Origin: a virus | IMG/VR virus record: IMGVR_UViG_3300048597_000644 | Span: 1-33,827 of that record | Strand: one strand, 5' to 3' | Length of the DNA stretch: 33,827 bases | In this document: one piece after another, positions 8,996 through 22,365 of the stretch | Layout of the letters: each line of letters begins with the position of its first letter | How positions within the stretch are numbered: the stretch's first letter is position 1 | The notes under the pieces: model-generated | What the model was told of the DNA's origin: nothing | The model's database searches: none | The model's input: the letters and a program-made list of their open reading frames with translations, nothing else | Translations under genes and position numbers: made by a program

Positions 8996-9024
8996 GCGGG
9001 TTCCTCCTCCTACTCAACTGGGAA

Positions 9025-9043
9025 TTTTGGGAATTTCCCAAAA
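9025..9043. promoter_or_regulatory. 19-bp perfect palindrome, candidate operator
   Basis: TTTTGGGAA-T-TTCCCAAAA, nine-base arms around one central base, between the divergent genes at 8995 (minus) and 9280 (plus). A palindrome of this kind is typical of a repressor operator. A related GGGAATTT half-site lies just before it, and the same AATTCCCAAAA arm recurs at about 20777, upstream of another minus-strand gene. Confidence 0.5.
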
Positions 9044-9079
9044 CCCCACTCATTAGATTTTAGCAAATTTCTGATCGCG

Positions 9080-9099: not shown

Positions 9100-9170
9100 T
9101 GTTTGCGGTAGTTGCGGTCGGGATTTTTTTTCTTTCCCAGGCCGTTTTGGGAATTTTCGCCAGTAGCGGA

Positions 9171-9276
9171 CGACAGGTCTGATTCACATCAGGAAACAGC
9201 CCGCAAATGAGCGGGCGAGCCTCACAGGCTTTAGCTCTCGGACCTGTCGCCTGTGGGGCCTCATTCAGGAGGTCCG
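9171..9276 (+). ncRNA. Structured, potentially switching leader RNA of the sigma gene
   Basis: CGACAGGTC (9171-9179) pairs with GACCTGTCG (9241-9249) and closes three perfect hairpins: (C)TGAT/ATCA(G) around 9179-9192, GCCCGC/GCGGGC at 9199-9216, and AGCCT/AGGCT at 9218-9230. The closing 3' strand can pair instead with the Shine-Dalgarno region: CGGACCT (9239-9245) is exactly complementary to AGGTCCG (9270-9276), which includes part of AGGAGG. A third option is a 10-bp pairing of 9220-9229 with 9249-9258. These folds exclude one another, the architecture of a translational switch. It matches no riboswitch class I recognise. Confidence 0.5.
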
Positions 9277-9279
9277 TTC

Positions 9280-9876
9280 GTGTCAGACAACCATTCAATC
9301 AATCTCGCCGATGACAATTTCGTTCGTAGTGTCATCAATCGCCAAGTCGGCAAGCTAATCGCCAAGTCCGACTTTACCCACCAAGACCGCAGTGATCTGG
9401 TCCAAGAGGTTTACGTTCGGGCCACTAAGAGCCTGCAACTCTACGATCCAGCTGTTGGTCATCTCTATCCCTACGTCTGCACCGTGGTGCAACGCCACTT
9501 GGCCAACGTCGTTCGCGATCGCTCCGTTGTTAAACGTGCGACTGTCGGCCGCGTAAGTCTGAGCAAGACAATTCGTGGTGACGACGGTGGGCAAATCGAA
9601 ATGTCCCAGACCTTACACGACAAGGATCAAGATCGACGGCTGGGGCGAGCGCGTCGACTTGGTGAAGAAGAGCTCAACGACCTGCGCATGGACCTCGCAA
9701 CTTTCATGACAAAGTTGCCTGAGAAATTTCAAGACGTTCTTCGTCGCCGTCAAACCCACTCGATGACCGAGATTTCTCGCGACCTCGGTATCCCTCGAAC
9801 CACGCTCAATGACTGGATGTTGCAGATCCGCAAGCTCTTCGAGGAAGCAGGATTTGAAAGATATCTGGAATCCTAA
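9280..9876 (+). CDS. Sigma-70 family (ECF-like) RNA polymerase sigma factor
   Basis: A 198-aa protein with sigma region 2 in the first 80 residues (HQDRSDLVQEVYVRATKSLQ, then LYPYVCTVVQRHLANVVRD) and region 4 at the C-terminus (LPEKFQDVLRRRQ, then MTEISRDLGIPRTTLNDWM). Regions 1.1 and 3 are absent, as in ECF factors, so it would redirect host RNA polymerase to a set of phage promoters. The start is the GTG at 9280, seven bases after AGGAGG at 9267-9272; an upstream ATG at 9253 has no binding site and lies inside the leader RNA. It opens the plus-strand early module, and its targets may include the repeated promoter-like elements of the minus-strand array. Confidence 0.82.
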   Translation: MSDNHSINLADDNFVRSVINRQVGKLIAKSDFTHQDRSDLVQEVYVRATKSLQLYDPAVGHLYPYVCTVVQRHLANVVRDRSVVKRATVGRVSLSKTIRGDDGGQIEMSQTLHDKDQDRRLGRARRLGEEELNDLRMDLATFMTKLPEKFQDVLRRRQTHSMTEISRDLGIPRTTLNDWMLQIRKLFEEAGFERYLES

Positions 9877-18000: not shown

Positions 18001-18045
18001 TCGAGCTATGTCCAAAAACCTTCAAAAACACTGGGGTTTTCGCAA

Positions 18046-18135
18046 GTGCGCCGGGTTGCGCAGGGTTGTTTCATTATCTTCCATGCGCGCACGCGCATGG
18101 AAAACAACCAAAGTACCCAGCGCAACCCGGCGCAC
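18046..18135. repeat. Long nested inverted repeat (candidate origin or dispersed repeat)
   Basis: Three nested stems: GTGCGCCGGGTTGCGC (18046-18061) with its exact complement at 18120-18135; GGTTGTTT (18064-18071) with AAACAACC (18102-18109); and CCATGCGC (18081-18088) with GCGCATGG (18093-18100) around a GCAC loop. It starts 46 bases after the primase-helicase stop. In P4-type replicons an origin with repeats lies near the primase gene, so an origin is one possibility; a mobile palindromic repeat is the other. Confidence 0.5.
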
Positions 18136-18527
18136 TCGATGCAATCGAGGCCTCTCGGCGACCCAGTGTTCGAGTCCTGTTCGGTCACCGAACGAGACGC
18201 TTCGAACTGCTCTATGCAGCCCAGCCATCGACCCTGACCTTCGCGTCGAAACTTCGCAACTCCAGCATGCGTTCGAGTGTCGCACGACGTTGCGCACTGA
18301 CGCGAGATCTATGCCAACTCGCCCAATGCATCGACCAATCCACTCATCGCGTCAGTGGGCCAACAGTGGCCCTCACAACGCGTCTGCCACTATGGCACTC
18401 GCAAGCCCCAAACGATGGGTCCTCCCCCAGAAACCACCGCGTTCTTGGGCCGCGGGAACAGCCGCGCGATTAGTCACAGTTTGTTTGTTTTGTCCGACCC
18501 CAAACTCCCTAGCCAAAGGATTGCATT
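18136..18527. other. Gene-free stretch with several small palindromes
   Basis: No convincing gene. It contains CTCGAT/ATCGAG (18135-18149), a 15-base palindrome GTTCGGT-C-ACCGAAC (18179-18193), and GGGCCA/TGGCCC (18357-18372). A GTTCGAGTCC string at about 18168-18177 looks like a tRNA T-loop but no cloverleaf forms around it. Together with the long hairpin just before, this looks like a control or replication region ahead of the methyltransferase gene. Confidence 0.4.
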
Positions 18528-21957: not shown

Positions 21958-22050
21958 CTTCGTAACTCCAAATCTGTGTTCGTGGTTGGCTGCCATCGTC
22001 AGGCCGATCGAACCACCGATCGACTACGCGCGTCCGTGCTGCGTTTCGGC

Positions 22051-22365
22051 TTATTGACCAAAGACCAAGTCCGACAATCCTTCGCAAAGAAAGTCGACCA
22101 CCACCTGGACCTCCGTATTGACCGCCGGCACATCCAAGCCGCGGTCAAAGTTGAACATCACTTTGCGGTCGGACAGGCGTTGAACCCAAAGCTTCGAAAT
22201 CTTGCTTTTGTTCAATTCGTACGATTCGTGTTCTGCGTGCTCGGCGAAGACCAATGCTTCGAAACGGTATTCGTCGTTGATCTTGCCTTGTACCCAAGAT
22301 CCGCCAGCGGCTGGGGTTCGATTGCTGATCTTGGTGATCGTGAGGTCGAGGTCGTGTTGGGTCAT
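22051..22365 (-). CDS. Hypothetical protein behind leader element 1
   Basis: A 104-aa protein, not recognised, with alternating strands and a helix: LDLTITKISNRTPAAGG, YRFEALVFAEHAEHESYELN, KISKLWVQRLSDRKVMFNFD, EVQVVVDFLCEGLSDLVFG. The chosen ATG at 22365 follows GGAGA at normal spacing. The frame stays open upstream through the leader element (to MCVNAKTIHQ), so a longer product is formally possible but has no binding site. Confidence 0.68.
   Translation of the reverse strand: MTQHDLDLTITKISNRTPAAGGSWVQGKINDEYRFEALVFAEHAEHESYELNKSKISKLWVQRLSDRKVMFNFDRGLDVPAVNTEVQVVVDFLCEGLSDLVFGQ

Follow-up and report, generated by a model that had tools for sequence, protein, structure and literature searches.

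In the preQ1, preQ1-II and SAM-II riboswitches, a pseudoknot lies next to the Shine-Dalgarno (SD) sequence and can trade partners with it. Among phages, the mRNA leader of T4 gene 32 carries a pseudoknot that is bound by the product of the same gene; it is located 67 nt upstream of the start codon and nucleates protein binding over A+U-rich RNA, and the E. coli rpsO (S15) leader also has a pseudoknot (PMC3014915). The put RNAs of phage HK022, around 70 nt in length, are instead found downstream of early promoters (PMC9378689). Here, we compare with these systems the leader of a phage sigma gene, in which an earlier note, made from the DNA letters, had seen the layout of a switch that frees or covers the SD.

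The sigma gene and its leader

The window, that is the whole stretch of DNA analysed, corresponds to a viral record 33,827 bases long, in which genes for terminase, portal and capsid were recognized along with a serine recombinase and two kinds of helicase, RecD-like and D5-like. On its plus strand, where all the features of the leader described below are located, positions 9280-9876 encode a phage RNA polymerase sigma factor (Pfam Sigma70_r2, 2.4e-6; PHROG 1740, sigma factor, 4.7e-15) that starts with GTG at 9280, is preceded by the SD AGGAGG recognized in the sequence at 9267-9272, and is followed on its 3' side by recombination and replication genes (a Sak4-like annealing protein and an ssDNA-binding protein). 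Close relatives of the window were found in Planctomycetota genomes, several of them labelled Pirellula, while a search of annotated phage and plasmid records gave no match to the sigma protein and a search of phage records gave none to the leader. Matches to the leader occurred once per record searched, adjoining either the sigma gene or a small ORF ahead of it. This ORF, of around 105 aa, lies directly 3' of the leader in L104, L108, L121, L259 and L261-L264, the one of L104 giving a weak EF-hand match, and a sigma-like gene is found 3' of it wherever the locus is long enough to show one. Indeed, in clade F and several others the small EF-hand-like ORF is the first gene and sigma the second.

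The leader is conserved well beyond the silent sites of the sigma gene. Within clade A, the 116-nt leader is 91-98% identical to that of the window, with mostly 40-66% identity at the fourfold-degenerate sites of sigma (L015 and L016, close relatives of the window, are higher at both), and in clades B and C the corresponding values are 75-79% and 38-40%. The leader thus changes at a much lower pace than the silent sites and, as judged from these identities, is under strong selection. The earlier proposal of a structured leader placed directly before a phage sigma gene is supported. In parallel, the sigma proteins have diverged to weak similarity while the core of the leader has been kept.

A further conserved block, TTTTGGGAATTTTCGCCAGT (9145-9164), which had escaped the earlier note, is nearly invariant in clades A-D and always lies exactly 6 nt ahead of CGACRGG, a constancy that is overstated by the search because members were partly found through the block itself. 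Other clades show dyad-like variants (GCGAAATTTCGC, GCGACATGTCGC) followed by CAGT and the same fixed 6-nt spacer, so that in all members the block ends in CAGT or close to it, and in several clades it forms a dyad. The block may be promoter or operator DNA, a protein site, or the 5' part of the RNA, and it probably has a role of its own as it persists in L091 and L264, where the outer P1 pairing described below is lost. A standard sigma-70 promoter scan found none. Operator-like inverted repeats, TGGGAA/TTCCCA, are present ahead of the leader at 9019-9044 and 9130-9154, and also in relatives.

Other elements are found elsewhere in the window. A repeat of around 70 nt (core ACACACATGAGCCATGCGG) occurs in eight copies between 22393 and 26822, several of them directly preceding small ORFs of the minus strand, which would fit a leader or promoter element common to these ORFs. 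A match to the type II hammerhead ribozyme of Rfam (39.6 bits, cut-off 37) lies on the minus strand at 21984-22051, near the junction of two minus-strand ORFs, and scores equally in a related phage (L036, 1802-1869). Finally, a 45-bp inverted repeat at 18045-18136 has arms that are 84% complementary and 2 nt apart.

A covarying pseudoknot

Two long helices make up the leader in the window. P1 joins a 5' arm, CGACAGGTCTGA (9171-9182), to a 3' arm, TCGGACCTGTCG (9238-9249), in 12 bp with one G-U, and PK joins 9219-9229 to 9249-9259 in 11 bp, of which 9220-9229/9249-9258 form a 10-bp core with one G-U. Since P1 and PK have only base 9249 in common and the 5' strand of PK is located inside the P1 loop, the two can form together. 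All the pairings listed in the earlier note are present exactly in the sequence. In particular, its pairing of 9171-9179 with 9239-9249 is part of P1 and is kept in nearly all leaders, and its third, 10-bp pairing is the core of PK. The latter had been taken as a rival of the former, an exclusion that is ruled out by the single common base and by the conservation of both in the same sequences; on this comparative basis, P1 and the third pairing are one pseudoknot, the covarying core of the leader. The three hairpins thought to define the junction all exist, and only one is kept: GCCCGC/GCGGGC (9199-9216), within the P1 loop, is retained among close relatives with a C-G to U-A change inside clade A, and a shifted counterpart, ACCGC/GCGGT, can be read in the sequences of clades B and C. 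Neither the small TGAT/ATCA hairpin (9180-9191), which clades B, C, D and also L009 do not keep, nor the local hairpin at 9217-9231 that competes with the 5' strand of PK is conserved, so the junction is not defined by three hairpins. The nested fold of 9150-9310 reaches -58.4 kcal/mol (z -2.6, 4 of 200 shuffles being equally good), and a pseudoknot of this layout, with helices of 11 bp and 10 bp, was found in none of 400 shuffles.

The leaders collected from Planctomycetota phages or prophages fall into about ten divergent groups, the distant ones coming from pattern scans and further members in host genomes from a covariance model, R1, that has P1 as its sole pairing. Many viral pattern matches lacked the leader, being collagen-like repeats or other coding sequence, and were dropped; Planctomycetota genomes that matched only the upstream block, or the block with the P1 5' arm, were set aside as chance, their context lacking both the P1 3' arm and a sigma gene. 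P1 is kept in nearly all groups (96.5% of cells paired in 26 sequences, nine pairs counted) and PK in most, with no clear PK in three members (L091, L095 and L264). Conservation is highest, in nearly all clades and regardless of which gene comes first, in the outer part of P1 (CGACRGG/CCTGTCG) and in the upstream block, while the loops between P1 and PK vary in sequence and length among clades and their unpaired nucleotides are not conserved.

The homologous leaders also provide the covariation check that the earlier note had proposed. In a structure-blind MAFFT alignment of 18 leaders, 98% of the cells of P1 and PK are paired and five pairs have changed on both sides, a result matched by none of 500 shuffles; with distant leaders added, again in a structure-blind alignment, 20 cells are changed on both sides where shuffles give 5.4, these counts referring to sequences and not to independent events. 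In an alignment of 26 leaders fitted to P1 and not to PK, both-sided changes amount to 42 cells, compared with 12.4 +/- 3.3 for shuffled data (0/500), and 8 of the 11 PK pairs vary in a paired fashion, although for close members the independence of the test is incomplete because R1 carries sequence information for the PK columns. Pairing in the same alignment is 92% and falls to at most 48% when the strands are slid by one to three columns. Thus, P1 and PK are conserved and PK covaries. For example, L096 has GCCCCGGGGAG/CTCCCCGGGGC in place of GCCTCACAGG/CCTGTGGGGC of the window, and the PK helices of L262 (CGAGGGG/CCCCTCG) and L098 (CCGAAGC/GCTTCGG) are unlike any sequence used in model building, each being only suggestive when taken alone (p about 0.11). 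In L067, P1 is absent from the MFE-only fold and PK alone is within chance (p 0.2), and both are proposed there by comparison. Across leaders, G-U pairs (47) are far above A-C mismatches (6), which points to the plus-strand RNA as the folding molecule; the pseudoknot itself and its action as plus-strand RNA can be regarded as established by comparison.

It is very probable that the leader represents an uncatalogued regulatory RNA, as related viruses keep the knotted fold even as the letters change. Compensatory pairing is kept and the element stands before one gene or operon, as in structured cis-regulatory leaders. At the gathering score, Rfam 15 has no family at the leader in the window and seven related loci, permissive Rfam scans, run on the leader regions of both the window and L252, returned chance-level matches only, and a tRNA or tmRNA search found none.

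Strands that could cover the Shine-Dalgarno

In the window, as the earlier note had suggested, the SD can be covered by alternative strands whose pairings exclude one another. One of these pairings, here ALT, was already described there: AGGTCCG (9270-9276) is the exact 7-bp complement of CGGACCT in the P1 3' arm (9239-9245). ALT is exact and is kept throughout clade A with 7 bp and with 8-10 bp in clades E (L092, L096), F (L104, L108, L116, L121, L131) and G (L240), but in clades B, C, D and most others it is broken or missing altogether (L259 has a single mismatch in the pairing, and the leaders of L261-L263, as read, do not have it). It gives no covariation signal in alignments of related leaders and, when forced in the window, leaves a fold about 13 kcal/mol less favourable than the best nested one. 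Taken alone in the window, it is not beyond chance (p 0.16). In clades E and G, the A that finds a U partner in ALT faces a C in P1, a mismatch compatible with, though no proof of, a second constraint acting on that strand.

The other is an SD-sequestering hairpin, GGGCCTC/GAGGTCC (9256-9262 with 9269-9275; z -3.0), which is new with respect to the earlier note and overlaps the end of the PK 3' strand. It is found in clades A, E and G, with counterparts in L092, L096 and L240, and is weak in F. Complementary sequence falls precisely on the SD through both ALT and the hairpin in A, E and G, and through ALT also in F; clades B and C have neither, and their SD is open either way. Temperature control had also been considered. 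RNA thermometers such as ROSE and fourU rely on one weak, internally mismatched SD hairpin, and the leader is not of this type, given that the SD hairpin of the window is GC-rich and that of L240 long, and that the conserved element is a pseudoknot helix, mostly of 7-12 bp across members.

Translational control is the most likely function of the leader, and we infer that it works mainly at this level. In full, we consider it somewhat probable that this is a pseudoknotted cis-regulatory leader, mainly translational, before the first gene of a Planctomycetota phage sigma/replication operon. In the clade of the window, the closed knot would keep the P1 3' arm (9239-9245) and the PK 3' strand (9256-9259) off the ribosome-binding site, whereas in the open form either strand could cap AGGAGGTCCG; this balance would be shifted, and sigma output set, by an effector, either a metabolite or a protein of the phage or the host. 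Under an assumed knot penalty of +7 kcal/mol, the knot state and the best nested fold differ by about 0.5-7 kcal/mol, the two forms being close in energy in several clades. In the folding of alternatives, also proposed earlier, the computed SD exposure changes only modestly when the knot forms: it goes from 0.33 to 0.35 in the window, is nearly unchanged in B, C and D and falls in L098 and L262, a clear rise being confined to L003, L092, L121 and L240. As a complete account, the idea that knot formation frees the SD is weakened by these small changes in several clades.

More tentatively, the leader could sense a signal of the cell or of the infection, directly or via a protein, and gate sigma production as a decision point of the phage life cycle, thus representing a new class of phage regulatory RNA in Planctomycetota phages. 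The family is new to Rfam 15, comprises about ten divergent groups with good covariation, and is tied to a phage sigma factor in a host phylum whose phages are little studied. It would offer a handle on the timing of gene expression in these phages, and its covarying helices make direct mutational tests simple.

Alternative explanations and nearest known systems

Within translational control, the effector might be the product of the operon itself: sigma, or in other clades the small EF-hand-like protein, would bind the pseudoknot and repress its own translation in the manner of gp32. The phage precedent of a pseudoknot bound by its own gene product and the single leader match per record, adjoining the sigma gene or operon, are in line with this, but the core of the leader has been kept while the sigma proteins diverged, and we regard autogenous control as fairly unlikely; being a special case that names the effector, it is already counted within translational control.

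The main alternative outside translation, by analogy with HK022 put, is a promoter-proximal RNA that would act on RNA polymerase and promote terminator read-through in a long early operon, its nearness to the ribosome-binding site being incidental. The leader does open a phage operon that contains sigma and replication genes, the parts most conserved regardless of the first gene are outer P1 and the upstream block, and put RNAs lie downstream of early promoters. However, the SD itself has a complementary strand in four clades and PK ends about 18-36 nt ahead of a start codon across members, which makes this reading unlikely.

A riboswitch for a metabolite or ion, with the P1/PK knot as the aptamer, would again be a special case of translational control. 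The pseudoknot lies directly before the SD, as in preQ1 and SAM-II riboswitches, but comparison of the loops between clades found no conserved unpaired core for ligand binding, which is unusual for an aptamer, and the controlled genes are phage genes without a metabolic link; we find this possibility quite improbable. Finally, that the inverted repeats are DNA, namely operator half-sites of a repressor or of the phage sigma, is suggested by the dyad-like upstream block with its fixed spacing, which may itself be operator or promoter, and is very improbable, being for PK already largely refuted by arms that change together to unrelated yet complementary sequences and by an excess of G-U over A-C that DNA half-sites leave unexplained.

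Among described systems, HK022 put resembles the leader, by its description, in being a folded leader RNA close to the promoter of an early phage operon (PMC9378689); put consists of two stem-loops, the word pseudoknot does not occur in that paper, and complementarity to the ribosome-binding site belongs to the leader described here. With rpsO, it shares a knot in a translational operator controlling one gene, but rpsO encodes a ribosomal protein and has no known sequence relation to the leader. With respect to preQ1-II and SAM-II, the leader has neither a conserved loop core nor an Rfam match, and it precedes a phage sigma gene. T4 gene 32 offers a phage mRNA leader pseudoknot upstream of the ribosome-binding site of a regulatory or replication gene (PMC3014915); here, the knot is closer to the start codon (about 18-36 nt), its long loop is occupied by hairpins, and the knot itself includes strands with complementarity to the SD. 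Collectively, and with membership in neither claimed, the nearest functional parallels by analogy would be the T4 gene 32 pseudoknot and the pseudoknotted translational riboswitches.
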